NCBI RefSeq assembly: GCF_008087625.1
Contig: NZ_CP042997.1
Span: 8,556,001 to 8,620,000 of the forward strand
Length of the DNA: 64,000 nt
Direction: 5' to 3'
Source: Aquisphaera giovannonii
Lineage (GTDB): Bacteria > Planctomycetota > Planctomycetia > Isosphaerales > Isosphaeraceae
The notes under the pieces are model-generated. The model searched no databases. It saw only the letters and a list, made by a program, of their open reading frames with translations, and was not told the origin of the DNA. The stretch's first letter is position 1. Each line of letters begins with the position of its first letter. The translations under genes were made by a program, and so were the position numbers. This document shows, one piece after another, positions 10,981 to 17,915 of this stretch.

Positions 10981-11846
10981 GCTCGCGTCTCCCGGCGATT
11001 CTTGACGGTTTGCCGACGCGACCATGATAGGCCCCCCGCCTTGCCCCGCCAAGCTCGGACTGCCGAGCGGCGAGCCGCCCCCTACCCGGCCGGCCGCCGG
11101 GCACCAACCGCCTCCGATCGTCGGGCGACGAACAAACCGGGTTCGACACCTCGTCGCCGCACGAAGAATCGGGCCTCGATGCACACGCGTCAACCTGCGA
11201 CGGCCTCGACGCGGTGACGGTCCGTGACGCCATGACCCCGCCGGCCCGACGCCCGCCGGCGATGGCGAACGAGCCTCGTGACGCCCTCGGCCCGGCGTCC
11301 TCTCGCGTTGCCGACATGATCCGATCGCGTCGTTGCGAGGCGGCGGGGCGGCGGAACGACGGGCGGATGCGCCTTGCGATCCGAAGGCACTTTGGCTCTG
11401 TTCGTCGGCAGTCATGCCACGCACTGCGAGACGTAAGTCGTTCCATATCAGGACTTCGTTCGTATCCGACGATCGGCACTGATGGTGCGCCTTCGCCCCG
11501 AAAGCCTCACACCTCCCGTCAATTTCCTGCGATGCCCGCGGGTCACGACCGGCAGCTCGTCGCCAGATCCCGCGCGTTGCCCGCGGCGCTTGGCGCACAC
11601 GCACAGAGCGATGCCTCTATCACTACATAGCGCTATGTTTCACCATTTTCGCGAAGTCGTGAGAGATTTCTGAAAGATTGACGGCGGCGAATCCCCTAAA
11701 AATTTCGGCGAGCGGCGAGGCCTCACGCCGGGTCGTTCGCGACGCGAATCCCGGTCCCCGGTCGAGCGGCTCACGACCGATGGAAGGACCCGTCGGGCGG
11801 ACAGGAGCCGATGGGCTCACGGTTCCACGAATTCGGAGAGAAGGCC
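10981..11846. other. Gene-poor stretch of lower G+C upstream of the Imm21-like gene
   Basis: 866 bp with no gene I can support. Open frames here have random-looking, Arg-rich translations without ribosome sites. Between about 11600 and 11710 the DNA becomes clearly more AT-rich than its surroundings and contains a perfect 14-bp palindrome, listed separately. It probably holds the promoter of the gene at 11847. Confidence 0.5.
11625..11638. promoter_or_regulatory. Perfect 14-bp palindrome, possible operator
   Basis: ACATAGCGCTATGT at 11625-11638 is fully self-complementary. It lies in the AT-rich segment about 210 bp before the Imm21-like start codon. Its size and symmetry suit a dimeric helix-turn-helix regulator, but no regulator gene is adjacent. 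Confidence 0.35.
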
Positions 11847-12431
11847 ATGAAGGACGGTCTGACCTGGGTCGGCACGAACGGCGGTCCACTCATCGTGATC
11901 CCCGGCGAAATCGCCCCGCGCTGGCGTGGCGGCGATGACACGGACTATTCCCTGAAGGATCTCGATCGCTGGTGGGAGACCCTCGATGCCGGCAGCAGCG
12001 ATTATGGTCGAGCCTGCGGAATCCGGGAGGTCGTGGGGATGCTCGCGGTCGGGCCGGGCCGGGCGTTGATTTTGCGGAAGGCGTCCATGCCCACCGCTTT
12101 CGTGCCCCGCGAGGACGGCGGCATCCTCGTCCGCGGGATCTACGCCGAGGAGGAGGCCACGCTCCGCCGGGCCCTCTGCACGATGCCCGAATCGGCCTGG
12201 AAGCCCACGCCGCACCGGATCACCGTCTCGCGAGAAGGACTCCTCGTGTTCGACTCGGCGCAGCCCGGCGATCACCTCCCGACGTCGATGGACGAGGAGG
12301 AGACCATCCCCTGCCTCCGGCTCGGGCTCCACGCCGGCACCTATCACGTGGACACCGCCGACCACTCGCCGGTCAAGACGAACCGATTGTGCCTGCACCG
12401 CCTGAGGCGGGAGTGGACCTCGGCGGCGTAG
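11847..12431 (+). CDS. Imm21-like immunity protein family
   Basis: 194 aa from the ATG at 11847, which has GGAGAG at 6-nt spacing; an ATG at 11811 would add 12 residues with a poorer ribosome site. The opening (LTWVGTNGGPLIVIPGEIAP followed by W-R-G-G) and the DYGRACGI segment resemble the Imm21 family of contact-dependent or polymorphic-toxin immunity proteins. Such proteins neutralise a cognate toxin. The assignment rests on remembered family pattern only. No toxin gene, Rhs/YD repeat or secretion gene is nearby, so this would be an orphan immunity gene. It stands alone between a low-GC stretch and a repeat-bearing non-coding region, a context that suggests acquisition by transfer. Confidence 0.5.
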   Translation: MKDGLTWVGTNGGPLIVIPGEIAPRWRGGDDTDYSLKDLDRWWETLDAGSSDYGRACGIREVVGMLAVGPGRALILRKASMPTAFVPREDGGILVRGIYAEEEATLRRALCTMPESAWKPTPHRITVSREGLLVFDSAQPGDHLPTSMDEEETIPCLRLGLHAGTYHVDTADHSPVKTNRLCLHRLRREWTSAA

Positions 12432-12820
12432 CCGATCGACGACGACCATCCGCCTCACCAGTCCCGGGGCCGGCGAACGACCGGCGCCTTCGTCCAGGAC
12501 CGCGGCGACGTGGCCGCGGCGTGTTCGAGTGGTGAGGAGATCCCCGGGGACGGCCCCGGCGGCGCGCGGCCCCAGGAGGGCCCGGACGTGATGACTCAAG
12601 GCCCCGTCGCCCAGGCGCTCCCTCTCGACGACTCGGGCGGGGCGTGCGGGTGCGACGCGGTCGCCCACGAGAAATACCGAACGCGCCCGGTGTCAGCCGG
12701 CATGGGAACCTGCTATTGCGACGCAAGGCCGCCGGTTCCGCGGCTCAATCGCCGTTGGCAGCCCGGACCGTGGAGAAAACCGGCATCGTCCCAAAGGACT
12801 GCGTAGCCATCACGGGGAGG

Positions 12821-12913
12821 TTGACAGTTGGCACCGCCCCGCATGCACGGGTGACCACGATCGTCAGATCGTGGTTCGGACGGGCGAAGCCTCCAGCCTC
12901 GCACGTCAGTGCG
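12821..12913 (+). repeat. Structured repeat, copy 1
   Basis: The copy starts with TTGACA at 12821 and has a variable 26-nt spacer, GTGACCAC, then a hairpin ACCACGATC-GTCA-GATCGTGGT (12854-12875). The 30-bp core at 12871-12900 reappears exactly, inverted, at 12994-13023. A second small stem CGCAC-GTCA-GTGCG follows at 12900-12913 with the same GTCA loop. Copies 1 and 2 have the same 38-bp distance from TTGACA to the end of GACCAC, so they are homologous over their whole length and not only in the core. Confidence 0.75.
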
Positions 12914-12980
12914 ACCCGGGACCCCGGGACATCGAGGCGAGGACGAGGCTGCTCCCGCGGGCCGAGGCCGGCCCCCAGAT

Positions 12981-13073
12981 CCGGCTGACGCTGGAGGCTG
13001 GAGGCTTCGCCCGTCCGAACCACCCGCTCACGCGGGTGGTCACGCGTCCATGGATTCCCGGGCGAAGTGTCAA
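12981..13073 (-). repeat. Structured repeat, copy 2 (inverted)
   Basis: Inverted copy of the repeat at 12821-12913. It shares the exact 30-bp core (12994-13023) and TTGACA (complement at 13068-13073). Its hairpin at 13019-13040 reads, on the minus strand, ACCACCCGC-GTGA-GCGGGTGGT. Relative to copy 1 the inner stem has changed from GATC/GATC to CCGC/GCGG, so pairing is kept by changes on both sides, while the outer ACCAC/GTGGT is unchanged. Confidence 0.75.
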
Positions 13074-13205
13074 GTTGGGGCTCCAGCATTCGGGACAATC
13101 CCGGAAAACCGGAAGCATTTGTCGACGGGCGTGCCCGGCCTCGTCCGGAGGGGATTCATCGAGGCACGTGGCGGGGGGCGCATGAGTCGGGCAGCCCCCA
13201 GCCGG

Positions 13206-16200
13206 TCACGGCCGTATCCCGCGTGTGCGGGCCTTCTCCCGGCGGGCCGGCCCATCTTCCTCCCGCGGGTCAGCTCTGCCGCCTTTCGCCCCACGGGGCG
13301 AAAATGGGTCGGCCGGGAACGCCGCGTCGAGGATCATCGCGTCGGCCTGGTGGAGCAGGAGATGGAACTCCACCCGGTCCCACCAGGTGCCCGACGAAGC
13401 GAGGTATGCCACCCTGCGGCGGGCGGCCGCGTCGCCACTCCGGCCGTGCGCCCTCTCCAGACAACGCCAGGCTTCGTCGCGATGGCCGAGCCGATGGTGG
13501 GCCATCGCCAGGACCGGATGATTCAGCGGTACCGCCCCCCAGCCGGCCCCGCGATCGAGCGACGACTGCGCGAACTCGACCGCTTGCTCGTAGCAACCGG
13601 CGCGGAGGGCGGCCAGGCCGGCCACGTAACGGTTCCAGGCGAGCTCCGGCCCCCGGGAGAGCGCGGCCTCGACCCACCGCCGCGCTTCGGAGAGGTCGGC
13701 GGCGGCGTCCGCTTCGACCAGGCAGGAGCGGGCCGCCTCGACGATCAGGGGATGCTCGGACTGGCTGAACCAGCGGAGCGTCTGGGCGCAGGCGCGTCGA
13801 TAACCCCGGTGGTCGCCGGCCAGCGTCAGGGCCAGGGCGAGCCGATGCCGCAGGCTCGGGTCATCGGGGCTCGCGTCGACGGCCCGGAGCATCAGGACGG
13901 CGAGCGCACGCCCCCCGGCATTGGCCTCGGCAATCCGACCGCGAGTCATCTCCTCGGCAGCCTCGACGAAGCGACCTGCGAGCGTATCGGGATCGACCTG
14001 CACCCCTTCCGGGGCATCGCCGCCCACGTCGACGGCCCGGTCCGCGGCCGCCGGCGCGAAGCCGGCGACGGTCCGGGGGCGGGTCGCGTCGCGGGGCTCG
14101 GCGGGGGATGACCGGCGGTAGGCCCGCCAGCGTTCGAGCCATTCCTCGGCCGACAAGTTGACCGTGCCCCCCCCTTCGTGGACCCGCCGACCCGAGAGGA
14201 GCTCGGCGCCCAGGCACAGGGAGTCCGGGTCGGCGCCCGACGTCAGGGCAGTCAGGTCGAGCGTGGCCAGCGCGTCCACGAACCCGCCAACGACCGCGTG
14301 CCGGCTGTCCGGCGTCACGACGACGGACATCGGGCTCCCGTTCATCGCCAGGGGCGGGGTGACGGGCTTGCCGGTCCGCCAGTCCCAGACGCGCGCGGTC
14401 CCGTCATCGCTCGCCGAGATGACCCAGCGGCCGTCCGCCGTGAAGGTCGCGGCGTTGGCCTCCCTGGCATGCTCGAACGGAGGGCACGCCAGCCGGCCGG
14501 CCCGCCAGTCCCAGGCCCGCACCATGCGATCGCGGCAGGCCGTCACCAGCAGCCGCCCGTCGGGGCTGAATGCCGCCGAGTAGACGATGTCCGGATGCGC
14601 GGGGAGCTCGACCAGGACCGCACCGGTCTCAAGGTCGTGGACGCGGACCGAGCCGTCGTAGGAGGCGAGCGCGATCGACCGGCCGTCGGGCGAGAATTGG
14701 AGGTCGTGGCACTTGTCTCGGAAACGAAGGGGCGGGTAGCGCGGGCGGCCCGTGTCCGCCTCCCAGACCCGGGCGTCGTTGCCCATCCCCCAGGTCAGCA
14801 CGCCCCGGCCGTCGGGGCTGAAGCGGACCGCCCCGTTGTTGATCCAGTGGCCGGCGACCTCGCCGTCGTGGGCGTGCCAGCGGAGGGCCTCGCGGCGGCC
14901 CTCGGGATCGAGGACCAGGAGCTCCCCCCCGCCGCAGAGCACGGCGAGCAGGCGGCCGTCGCGTCGGTAGGAAAGGCTGCGGGGCTCGGAGGGCAGCGAC
15001 GCGCGCCAGCCGGACCGGCCCCGGGCCCAGTCCCAGGTCACGACTTCCTGACCCGCCTCCGAGGGGCCGTCCCGCGCGGTGGCCGCGGCGACCGTGCGCC
15101 CGTCGGGGGAGAAGGCCGCGTCGACGATCCGTCCCCCGGGCCGGAGGGGCGGCCCGGCCGGCCGTCCCGTCGCGACGTAGCTCACCGTCGTGCTTCGGAG
15201 CACGCGCCTGTAGGTCATCCCGGTCGGGATCGCGAGCGCGCCATCGGGGCTGATCGCGGCGAAGGAGCCGTCGCCGTCCAGGGGCAGGAAGGTCGTCGGC
15301 ACCCCCGCCTCGGGCGGCGCCCACAGGCGGACCAGGTCGCCGTCCTGGGTGGCCAGCGATCGGCCGCCGGTCGCGAACGCCACGACCCGGCCGGGGCGGT
15401 GGAGGTCGAGCGGCGGGGCCAGGGGCTCGCCGCCGGGGACGGACCAGAGCCGGGCCGTGTTGTCGCTCGAGCAGGTCAGGAGCATCCGGCCGTCCGGGCT
15501 GAAGGCCGCGCCGAACACGCTATTCCGGTGCTCCAGGGCGCGCCCCACGGGGCGGCCCGCGGCCGTCTCGAAGATCCGGATGGTGGCGGGCAATTCCCGG
15601 CCGTAGGCGGCGAAATGCCGCCCGTCGGGGCTGGGGACGATCTCGGCCAGCCGGCCCGAGAGGTCGGGCACGTCCAGCGTCCGGACCTTGGCCCCGGCCT
15701 CCGTGTCGCGCCAGGTGAGCCCCTCCTTGCCATCGTAGGTGATCAGCCCTCGACCACCGTCGACGAAAAGGGGCGGCGAGCAGAACCAGCGCACCCAGAC
15801 GCCGTCGGACTCGTGCTGGAGATGGGGCATCAGTGGCCAGAGCGGGCGAGGGGAGTCGCCGGGGACGGCGAAGAGGCGGGCCCGCTGATCGCGGCAGCCC
15901 GTCGCCAGTCGGCCGCCCGAGGGGTGGAACGCCAGCGACGTCACGTCCGCCGGATGGGTAAACCGCGGGGTCGCGAAGGCGCGGGCCCGGACGTCCCAGA
16001 CGCGGGCCGTGCTGCCGCCGGCGATCGCCAGGAACCGGCCGTCGGCGCTGTAGGTCAGGTGCCGGATTCGCCCCGGGAAGCGGGTGCGAACGGCCCCCTG
16101 CCCGTCGGGGAAGCCGGCGACGATCACGTCGCCCTCGGCGCGGCCCACCGCCAGGGCGTGTCCATCCGGGCTCCAGGCGGCGGCCGGCGCGTCGTCCATG

Positions 16201-17915
16201 CCGCTCAGGAACGGCACCGGACGTTCGGCGTCCAGGTCCCAGAGCGTGAGGCGTGCATCCCGCGTCACCCCGTTCGTGATCGTCTTCGTGATCAAGTGAT
16301 GGCCGCCCGGATGGAACACGATGCCCCCGGGCCAGGTCCCGTCGGCGACGAGGGCCCGCAGCGGCGTGAAGGCACCGCGGCCCCACGTCCGGGCGCGGAT
16401 GGCGTTGACGTCGCGCCGCTCGGGGTCGTCCCGGGCCCGCCGGGCGGCGTTGGCGAACCAGAGCGCGGCCCGCCCGTTGTCGCCCTGGTCGCCGGCCTGG
16501 ATCCCGGTCGTGGCGTACATGTCCACCAGGGTCGCCTCGGCCTCGAGCCGGGCGGCCTGGGCCGCCCGGCTCGCGACGGCCTCGGCCAGGGCCCGCCGCG
16601 CGGCCAGGTCGCGCGCCCTCACCGCCTCGCGCCATTGCCAGAGGATTCCGGCGATCCCCAGGGCGGCGACGAGCAGGATCGCCGCGCTGAGCGCGGCCGG
16701 CGCCGGGTGGCGTCGGCACCACCGCCAGGCCCGCTCGAGCGGGCCGACCGGGCGAGCCGCGATCGGCTCGTCTTCGAGGAAGCGCCGGAGGTCCTCCGCC
16801 AGGGCGTCGGCCGTCGCGTAGCGCCGGGCCGGCTGCTTCTGCAGGCAGGTCATCGCGATCGTCTCGACGTCGCGCGGCAGGCCGGGCACCAGCCGCCGCG
16901 GCGGGACGGGCTCCACGTCCCTGACCTGCTCGATCGTCTCCAGGGCGCTGGCCCCGCGGAACGGCGGGCGGCCGACGATCAGCTCGTAGAGGATCGCCCC
17001 CAGTGCGTGGATGTCGGCCGGCGGGCCGACCTCGCGGATCCTCCCCTGCGCCTGCTCCGGGGCCATGTAGCAGGGCGAACCCATGATCGAATCGGTGGCC
17101 GTCAGGCCCGAGTCTATGCCCGGCGCCTTCGCCAGCCCGAAGTCGGCGATCTTCGGCGTCCCGTCGGCGGCGAGCAGGATGTTGCCCGGCTTCAGGTCGC
17201 GGTGGACGATGCCCGCCCGATGCGCCTCGGCGACGCCGCGGGCCAGCGACGCGACCAGCGAGGCCGCCCGCCGTGCCGGCCAGGGGGTGCCGTCGAGCTG
17301 CCGATCCAGGCTCCCCCCCTCGAGATACTCGAGCTCGAAATAGGGCAGTCCGTCGGCCTCCCCGATGTGCCGGATCTCCACGATCTGGGGGTGATGCAGA
17401 CGCGCGACCGCCTGGGCCTCGATCAGGAAGCGCGAGTAGGCCTCGGGGGCCGCGTGGGCGCCGCCCAGGATCATCTTCAGCGCGCACGGGCGGTCGAGCA
17501 GGACCTGGCGGGCCTGGTACACGACCCCCATGCCCCCGCGACCGAGCTCGCCGATGATCTCATAGCCGGGGATGGCGTTCCGCGCGCAGGGTACCCCCGG
17601 CGGCGGGACGCCGACGCCGCGGGTCAGGGCCCCGGCGTCGGGCAGGTGCACCTCGCTCGCGGCGTGCGTGCTCGTGTTGTCGAGCGAGAGGTCGAGCTCG
17701 ACCTCCCGCCCCGTCGCCCTCCCGCCGCGGCCGACAATCGGCCGTTCCGGGGGACTCTCGCGACCGTCCCGGGCCCTCAGGAGGGCTTCGACCCGCTCGC
17801 GCAGCCCCGGGTCGTCGGCGCACTCGCGTTCGAGGATGGACTCCCGCTCCGCGAGGTCTTCGCACCCGACGACCGACAGGAACAGGCTCTGCACGCGACG
17901 CGGGTCGGGGGGCAT
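13206..17915 (-). CDS. Ser/Thr protein kinase with WD40 repeats and TPR-like C-terminus
   Basis: 1,569 aa. An N-terminal helical module (about 1-50) is followed by a complete kinase domain at about 117-385: GELGRGGMG 122-130, CALK lysine 147, HRDLKPGN 238-245, DFG 258-260 and APEQA 285-289. A single membrane helix lies at about 405-427. Then come many WD40 repeats (about 510-1250), seen as recurrent SPDGR and FSPDG turns and strands ending in R(V/L)WD. The C-terminus (about 1330-1530) has helical repeats resembling TPRs (ADLSEARRWVEAALSRGPELAWNRY). WD40 propellers and TPRs bind proteins, so this is a membrane-bound kinase with a scaffold or sensor region. It lies 72 bp downstream of a small same-strand gene. 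Substrate unknown. Confidence 0.93.
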   Translation of the reverse strand: MPPDPRRVQSLFLSVVGCEDLAERESILERECADDPGLRERVEALLRARDGRESPPERPIVGRGGRATGREVELDLSLDNTSTHAASEVHLPDAGALTRGVGVPPPGVPCARNAIPGYEIIGELGRGGMGVVYQARQVLLDRPCALKMILGGAHAAPEAYSRFLIEAQAVARLHHPQIVEIRHIGEADGLPYFELEYLEGGSLDRQLDGTPWPARRAASLVASLARGVAEAHRAGIVHRDLKPGNILLAADGTPKIADFGLAKAPGIDSGLTATDSIMGSPCYMAPEQAQGRIREVGPPADIHALGAILYELIVGRPPFRGASALETIEQVRDVEPVPPRRLVPGLPRDVETIAMTCLQKQPARRYATADALAEDLRRFLEDEPIAARPVGPLERAWRWCRRHPAPAALSAAILLVAALGIAGILWQWREAVRARDLAARRALAEAVASRAAQAARLEAEATLVDMYATTGIQAGDQGDNGRAALWFANAARRARDDPERRDVNAIRARTWGRGAFTPLRALVADGTWPGGIVFHPGGHHLITKTITNGVTRDARLTLWDLDAERPVPFLSGMDDAPAAAWSPDGHALAVGRAEGDVIVAGFPDGQGAVRTRFPGRIRHLTYSADGRFLAIAGGSTARVWDVRARAFATPRFTHPADVTSLAFHPSGGRLATGCRDQRARLFAVPGDSPRPLWPLMPHLQHESDGVWVRWFCSPPLFVDGGRGLITYDGKEGLTWRDTEAGAKVRTLDVPDLSGRLAEIVPSPDGRHFAAYGRELPATIRIFETAAGRPVGRALEHRNSVFGAAFSPDGRMLLTCSSDNTARLWSVPGGEPLAPPLDLHRPGRVVAFATGGRSLATQDGDLVRLWAPPEAGVPTTFLPLDGDGSFAAISPDGALAIPTGMTYRRVLRSTTVSYVATGRPAGPPLRPGGRIVDAAFSPDGRTVAAATARDGPSEAGQEVVTWDWARGRSGWRASLPSEPRSLSYRRDGRLLAVLCGGGELLVLDPEGRREALRWHAHDGEVAGHWINNGAVRFSPDGRGVLTWGMGNDARVWEADTGRPRYPPLRFRDKCHDLQFSPDGRSIALASYDGSVRVHDLETGAVLVELPAHPDIVYSAAFSPDGRLLVTACRDRMVRAWDWRAGRLACPPFEHAREANAATFTADGRWVISASDDGTARVWDWRTGKPVTPPLAMNGSPMSVVVTPDSRHAVVGGFVDALATLDLTALTSGADPDSLCLGAELLSGRRVHEGGGTVNLSAEEWLERWRAYRRSSPAEPRDATRPRTVAGFAPAAADRAVDVGGDAPEGVQVDPDTLAGRFVEAAEEMTRGRIAEANAGGRALAVLMLRAVDASPDDPSLRHRLALALTLAGDHRGYRRACAQTLRWFSQSEHPLIVEAARSCLVEADAAADLSEARRWVEAALSRGPELAWNRYVAGLAALRAGCYEQAVEFAQSSLDRGAGWGAVPLNHPVLAMAHHRLGHRDEAWRCLERAHGRSGDAAARRRVAYLASSGTWWDRVEFHLLLHQADAMILDAAFPADPFSPRGAKGGRADPREEDGPARREKARTRGIRP

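Follow-up and report, generated by a model that had tools for sequence, protein, structure and literature searches.

Hairpin doublets in Aquisphaera giovannonii form the body of a MITE and are probably retained ends of a Y1 element

Positions 12821-13073 of the window (the whole 64,000-nt stretch of the A. giovannonii chromosome analyzed here) are the core of a 321-bp MITE, 12782-13102, that inserts with an 8-bp target duplication. The core is a doublet of two inverted, non-identical half-units, termed A and B. We found that A/B doublets occur both with and without the MITE, and that a Y1 transposase gene lies between A and B at one locus of Aquisphaera insulae. Taken as a whole, we read the structure as the retained ends of a Y1 element that now serve as the body of a DDE-type MITE, a reading to which we assign a probability of roughly three in four.

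The window copy is a complete MITE

A sequence-only reading of this DNA (72% G+C across the window) had described an inverted pair of structured repeats at 12821-13073. Inspection of the letters confirmed that 12871-12900 and 12994-13023 are exact reverse complements, that TTGACA lies 50 nt outside the core on both sides (starts 12821 and 13073) and that two 9-bp stems are present as claimed (ACCACGATC-GTCA-GATCGTGGT and ACCACCCGC-GTGA-GCGGGTGGT), with three pairs differing on both sides. The inverted pair is therefore real, but the bounds of the element lie outside the interval given, at 12782 and 13102. A 21-base core pattern, allowing up to three mismatches, matched twice in the window against 0.01 matches expected, and a 27-base pattern returned 100 near-matches across the 10.5-Mb genome versus 0 for its reversed control.

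The complete copy, whose ends are common to 31 pairs, starts with a left terminal inverted repeat, GGCATCGTCCCAAAGG (12782-12797, + strand; 15/16 match), followed by arm A (12798-12852, +), which includes TTGACA at 12821-12826 and scores 61 against the A-arm consensus (site 8568853). Next come the A-type half-unit (12853-12916, +; C1:8568853-8568916; 93 bits with model R2), a 61-bp centre (12917-12977) and the B-type half-unit (12978-13041, −; C1:8568978-8569041; 89.5 bits with model R2). The centre that separates the half-units is of the long type found in 25 of the 31 MITE copies, the remaining 6 having a short centre. Arm B (13042-13086, −), with a minus-strand TTGACA at 13068-13073 and a score of 51 against the B-arm consensus, leads to the right terminal inverted repeat, GGGATTGTCCCGAATG (13087-13102, −; 15/16 match). 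The target site duplication consists of the 8-bp left copy AGAAAACC (12774-12781) and the right copy GGAAAACC (13103-13110), identical at 7/8 positions. The whole sits in the convergent spacer between an open reading frame of 206 aa (11811-12431, +) and a long gene of 1569 aa (13206-17915, −), which, judged by eye, we take to encode a protein-kinase and WD40-repeat protein.

Across the genome, 31 pairs, this one included, carry conserved arms on both sides, always one A and one B arm, and end sharply at the 16-bp terminal inverted repeat GGSATCGTCCCRAATG; their lengths range from 304 to 329 bp (mode, 322 bp). At a duplication length of 8, 186 of 248 flanking positions were equal across the 31 copies, compared to a mean of 76.9 and a maximum of 114 in 10,000 shuffles, none of which reached 186, while all other lengths from 4 to 12 failed (0.17-0.35). 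Per copy, the duplication is perfect in 13 of 31 and has at least 7/8 matching bases in 21, with 8 copies showing 4 or fewer. The commonest target, GGCGAAGC on either strand, accounts for 13 of the 62 flank octamers. Since the window copy is bounded by terminal inverted repeats and its 8-bp target site is duplicated, it is also a plain transposition product, which runs against the earlier view that the pair was "not simple duplication." By gene context, as judged with a crude codon-usage caller, 5 MITE copies are convergent, 7 divergent and 14 tandem, and 5 were not called.

A search with the terminal repeat pattern revealed no autonomous element with MITE ends in A. giovannonii, and none among the matches listed from the same search of 39 relatives; three stray sites in A. 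giovannonii resembling the terminal repeats have no transposase. An IS4-type transposase of G001 (taken as A. insulae) with partly similar ends was dropped as a partner because its copies in its own genome end differently. Separately, one locus (L134 from 509; G000:C1:568508) appears to be a collapsed copy, in which a MITE-type end precedes just one short hairpin, GTGACCACCGGC..GCCGGTCGTCAC.

Half-units comprise three hairpins with paired changes

The structure within each half extends beyond the single stem first described: every half-unit comprises three hairpins, i.e., two more per half (columns 31-39 and 47-62 of alignment A1). In the window, these are the first stem at 12854-12875, the middle hairpin at 12883-12891 and the third at 12899-12914 in the A half (+), and 13019-13040, 13003-13011 and 12980-12995, respectively, in the B half (−), where the third has a single mispaired position (CAG/CCG). 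When each half of the window copy was folded alone as DNA, the best structure held only the first hairpin, the other two losing to rival pairings.

We aligned 81 distinct half-units out of 85, four being excluded as misaligned or degenerate, and found standard pairs in 97.0% of 1458 cells. Both-side changes affected six pairs and 217 cells, compared to 95.8 on average in shuffles; when the partners were shifted by 1-3 columns, pairing fell to 30-40% and the number of both-side cells to 5-41. Two of five measures (the number of pairs with a both-side change and of further pair types) did not exceed the shuffles. These figures and the stem types below count sequences, not events, and A. giovannonii has few stem types. 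The inner first stem is CCG/CGG in 35 of the 81, GAT/ATC in 30, ACG/CGT in 4, GGG/CCC in 3 and CGG/CCG in 1; the third hairpin is GCA/TGC in 34, CGG/CCG in 31 and GGG/CCC in 10, the remainder being imperfect in both cases. Middle loops are mostly GAA (n = 67), followed by GGA (10), GTA (2), GCA (1) and GAG (1).

The strongest support for structural selection comes from the relatives, in which 97.4% of cells pair and 81 cells changed on both sides versus 20.8 in shuffles (44 matches, 23 relative loci), in an alignment that was fitted to the model and is hence biased towards it. Relatives also show stem types absent from A. giovannonii (GGA, GTT, GTC and others). The expectation of further copies was thus borne out by a genome-wide repeat whose hairpins are retained through paired changes, also in related genomes.

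The sequence-only reading had raised a small RNA as one source of such structure. A structured small RNA or riboregulator duplicated around the genome would fit the 321-nt strand, which as RNA folds well below shuffles (z = −6.5), as any long inverted repeat would. However, no Rfam family reached threshold within 12000-14000, the only match to E 1 being rsmX at 25.2 bits (threshold, 56), and the copies have terminal inverted repeats and target duplications. We regard this explanation as very improbable; the structure can be explained without invoking a host RNA role.

Head-to-head pairs exist with and without the MITE

Of the 124 half-units on the A. giovannonii chromosome, all but 8 singles are arranged head to head in 58 pairs; one more match is on a second contig. 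In none of the 58 pairs do the two sides share a first-stem type. Since all 58 join different types, the paired change seen in the window is an old difference between the two ends that was copied along; selection on structure, as proposed earlier, is upheld by paired changes genome-wide, but the change in question did not occur at 12821-13073. The pairs are extragenic, with only 1 of 58 (a bare pair) called inside a gene. In two of them, the third hairpins are swapped between the halves, a pattern that would fit inversion of the centre through recombination between the inverted cores.

The pairs that do not carry both arms in full (27 of 58) are referred to here as bare pairs. Weak traces of one arm or the other, A or B, persist in nine and are absent from 18, the cut between the two groups having been set by eye at a score of ~14. 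The simplest account would be that there is only a MITE, of which the bare pairs are old copies with decayed arms, while the hairpins serve DDE transposition or nothing; the nine traces agree with this, as does the finding that nearly all MITE-type ends in A. giovannonii belong to MITE copies. However, the cores of bare pairs score up to 94 bits even though their flanks are armless, and therefore bare pairs are not simply decayed MITEs. They also have a conserved centre of their own, which is found in five of the six short-centre MITE copies and differs from that of the other 25. Moreover, within MITE copies the halves are 93-95% identical versus 75-78% for the adjoining arms, so the core is the conserved part. 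Together with the unrelated arms in another genus described below, these observations make a MITE-only origin unlikely, and bare pairs may have been mobile independently.

According to the crude codon-usage caller, bare pairs adjoin genes in 11 convergent, 4 divergent and 11 tandem spacers (n = 26). Two bare loci have unusual layouts: L061 (G000:C1:6199095-6199506) has a centre enlarged by ~230 bases, starting near GTCTGTCCCATAAG, which could reflect the insertion of another MITE, and L059 (G000:C1:5504564-5504950) consists of two bare pairs in tandem, 32 bases apart.

The core occurs in different shells in other genomes

Among named records, exact cores were found in A. insulae. Model R2 matched 6 of 45 Isosphaeraceae genomes and 7 of 397 genomes of the class, the seventh through a single weak match. 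One of these genomes, G013 of genus g10, holds 65 half-units. Six of the 15 pairs inspected there have arms of a different end, TGAGAGTCTGTTCC, which is clear on both sides in one pair and on at least one side in the other five. These arms have no similarity to the Aquisphaera arms (the loci compared also supplied the reference strings), and the core is thus found in two or more distinct shells. In G020, from another genus, we observed a doublet whose centre is longer and whose conserved flanks are of a third kind, carrying a sequence similar to CCAACGGATT(G/C)TGGCATTCGG close to the outer end (L090, L101 and L109).

One A. insulae locus has a Y1 transposase gene between A and B

In A. insulae, a Y1 transposase gene is located between an A half (L172 1280-1345, +) and a B half (2038-2101, −), within a span of ~827 bp from GTGACCAC to GTGGTCAC (L172 1279-2105); a second A/B pair directly adjoins this locus. 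The link between Y1 and the repeat rests on this one locus, and none of the nine Y1 matches in G013 is bracketed by the repeat. The protein matches PF01797 (98.5 bits) and is of the IS200 type, scoring 101.8 bits with NF033573 (cut-off, 55) and 30.4 with the RAYT model (cut-off, 80). It contains the motifs HVH and YIGKQ and aligns to solved IS200/IS605-type transposases, with spurious matches to designed repeat proteins as well. In a tree of 49 Y1 proteins, its branch is long and of unsure place, lying next to the IS200 clade (94/76), apart from the A. giovannonii RAYTs (100/100) and outside a third clade of 17. No relative of this protein was detected in the A. giovannonii genome at E ≤0.001. 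Given the gene between the A and B halves, the doublets resemble the paired ends of an element of this kind that has lost its gene.

The suggestion that the repeat is REP-like holds for its layout, which resembles that of REPs and REPINs, and a search for a REP-associated transposase had been advised. A REPIN or BIME moved by a RAYT-type gene of A. giovannonii, with a host role such as at transcript ends, would be in line with the eleven RAYT-type matches in that genome and with the position of bare pairs near genes, where, by the crude caller, convergent spacers outnumber divergent ones. Nevertheless, the repeat brackets none of the 11 RAYT loci; two of them have ordinary MITE copies in the vicinity, at distances of ~1.5 and 3 kb, and the hairpins have no GTAG foot. 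The two strongest RAYT genes carry canonical GTAG repeats of their own, and A. giovannonii therefore has at least three unrelated palindromic repeat families. We rejected the A. giovannonii RAYT genes as partners of the repeat and consider this explanation improbable; the transposase that does accompany the repeat is the Y1 enzyme of the sister species, of the IS200 and not the RAYT type. The GTAG repeats lie at L116 1203-1388 and 1953-2076 (G000:C1 near 4903185) and at L117 1246-1443 (near 511129). In addition, short degenerate tandem repeats (GGQTGPPSF-like translation) make up an extended array next to one of the long RAYT-like genes (L126 5400-6900).

A proposed origin of the doublets

Under our preferred reading, A and B would be the ends of a single-stranded DNA (Y1) element with inverted ends, and bare pairs would be internally deleted derivatives that had lost the gene and were moved by a Y1 enzyme that A. 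giovannonii no longer has. One A/B doublet would then have been turned into a MITE body, and the MITE would have been spread by a DDE-type transposase, an enzyme that the terminal-repeat searches described above did not reveal. The paired changes in the stems may be explained by the need of a Y1 enzyme to recognize folded single strands.

More generally, we tentatively propose, at somewhat less than even odds, that doublets of the REPIN kind can form by deletion from a Y1 element whose ends are inverted but not identical, and that more than once they became the body of an unrelated DDE-type MITE (a GGSATCGTCCC shell in Aquisphaera and a TGAGAGTCTGTTCC shell in g10). The resulting composite would carry transposition signals for single strands as well as double strands. 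For the origin of REPINs, both stages can be seen in the two sister species, with an A/B element that bears its enzyme in one and doublets only in the other. The MITE shell shows a way for a palindromic doublet to spread after losing its own enzyme.

Comparison with known systems

REPINs, MITEs and derivatives of IS200 are all established types of element. Like MITEs of DDE transposons, the Aquisphaera element is short and gene-free, with terminal inverted repeats, a target duplication of fixed length and tens of copies; it differs in that its body is a pair of Y1-type ends and that no autonomous parent was found. With IS200/IS605 elements, it shares a Y1 transposase with HUH and YxxxQ motifs and subterminal hairpins at both ends. 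The ends of canonical IS200 are not inverted relative to each other, whereas A and B are head-to-head inverted repeats, and we therefore file the element as working like IS200/IS605 and not as a member. Five G104 copies used in this comparison have, by eye, different hairpins at each end.

The passages of PMC6006769 drawn on here describe a class 3 of TnpA-Y1 proteins in Planctomycetes, with YxxxQ and atypical high-copy structures that have a CnGA foot and combine IS and REPtron traits. The A. insulae protein, compared with class 3 by description, has the YxxxQ signature (YIGKQ), and the foot of the first stem, the only stem considered, reads CCGA on the opposite strand in 59 of the 81 aligned A. 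giovannonii half-units. A clade of Isosphaeraceae Y1 proteins with YxxxQ has tandem two-hairpin flank modules, AGCCCCGGAAGGGGCGA...TAGCCAGGGGTGAAACCCCTGG (L202, L204, L205, L206, L208 and L218), and is possibly the published class 3; in our tree, the A. insulae protein falls outside this clade.

REPINs and BIMEs consist of two inverted palindromic units and a spacer, with many extragenic copies, compensatory changes and singlets as remnants, and an ancestral IS200-like element has been suggested as their origin, according to the parts of PMC3116915 consulted. The Aquisphaera repeat resembles them in its 58 inverted doublets, extragenic location, compensatory changes and singles. In contrast, its hairpins are preceded by GGT/GAC with no GTAG foot, each half has three hairpins, no doublet joins two halves of one type, and the gene linked to the repeat belongs to the IS200 type and is missing from A. 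giovannonii. It also differs from CGTC-tagged REPs in having no unpaired CGTC end tag, GTC being found in hairpin loops.

In open-licence PMC text, mostly judged from listings, we found no paper that deals with the Aquisphaera repeat or describes a MITE whose body is a REPIN. Plasmid searches returned nothing. The sections seen of PMC3116915, PMC3733652, PMC6006769 and PMC5352709 mention REP dimers in longer palindromes and an IS200 origin of REPINs, and describe no MITE with such a body and a target duplication. A parallel in layout comes from A. variabilis and H. neapolitanus, in which, as far as the portions used of PMC3733652 report, REP dimers lie inside longer conserved palindromes and no empty outer palindromes were found. 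The nesting of REP dimers in a conserved outer palindrome is shared with Aquisphaera; the same portions report no target duplication, whereas the Aquisphaera shell is a 304-329-bp MITE with an 8-bp target duplication.
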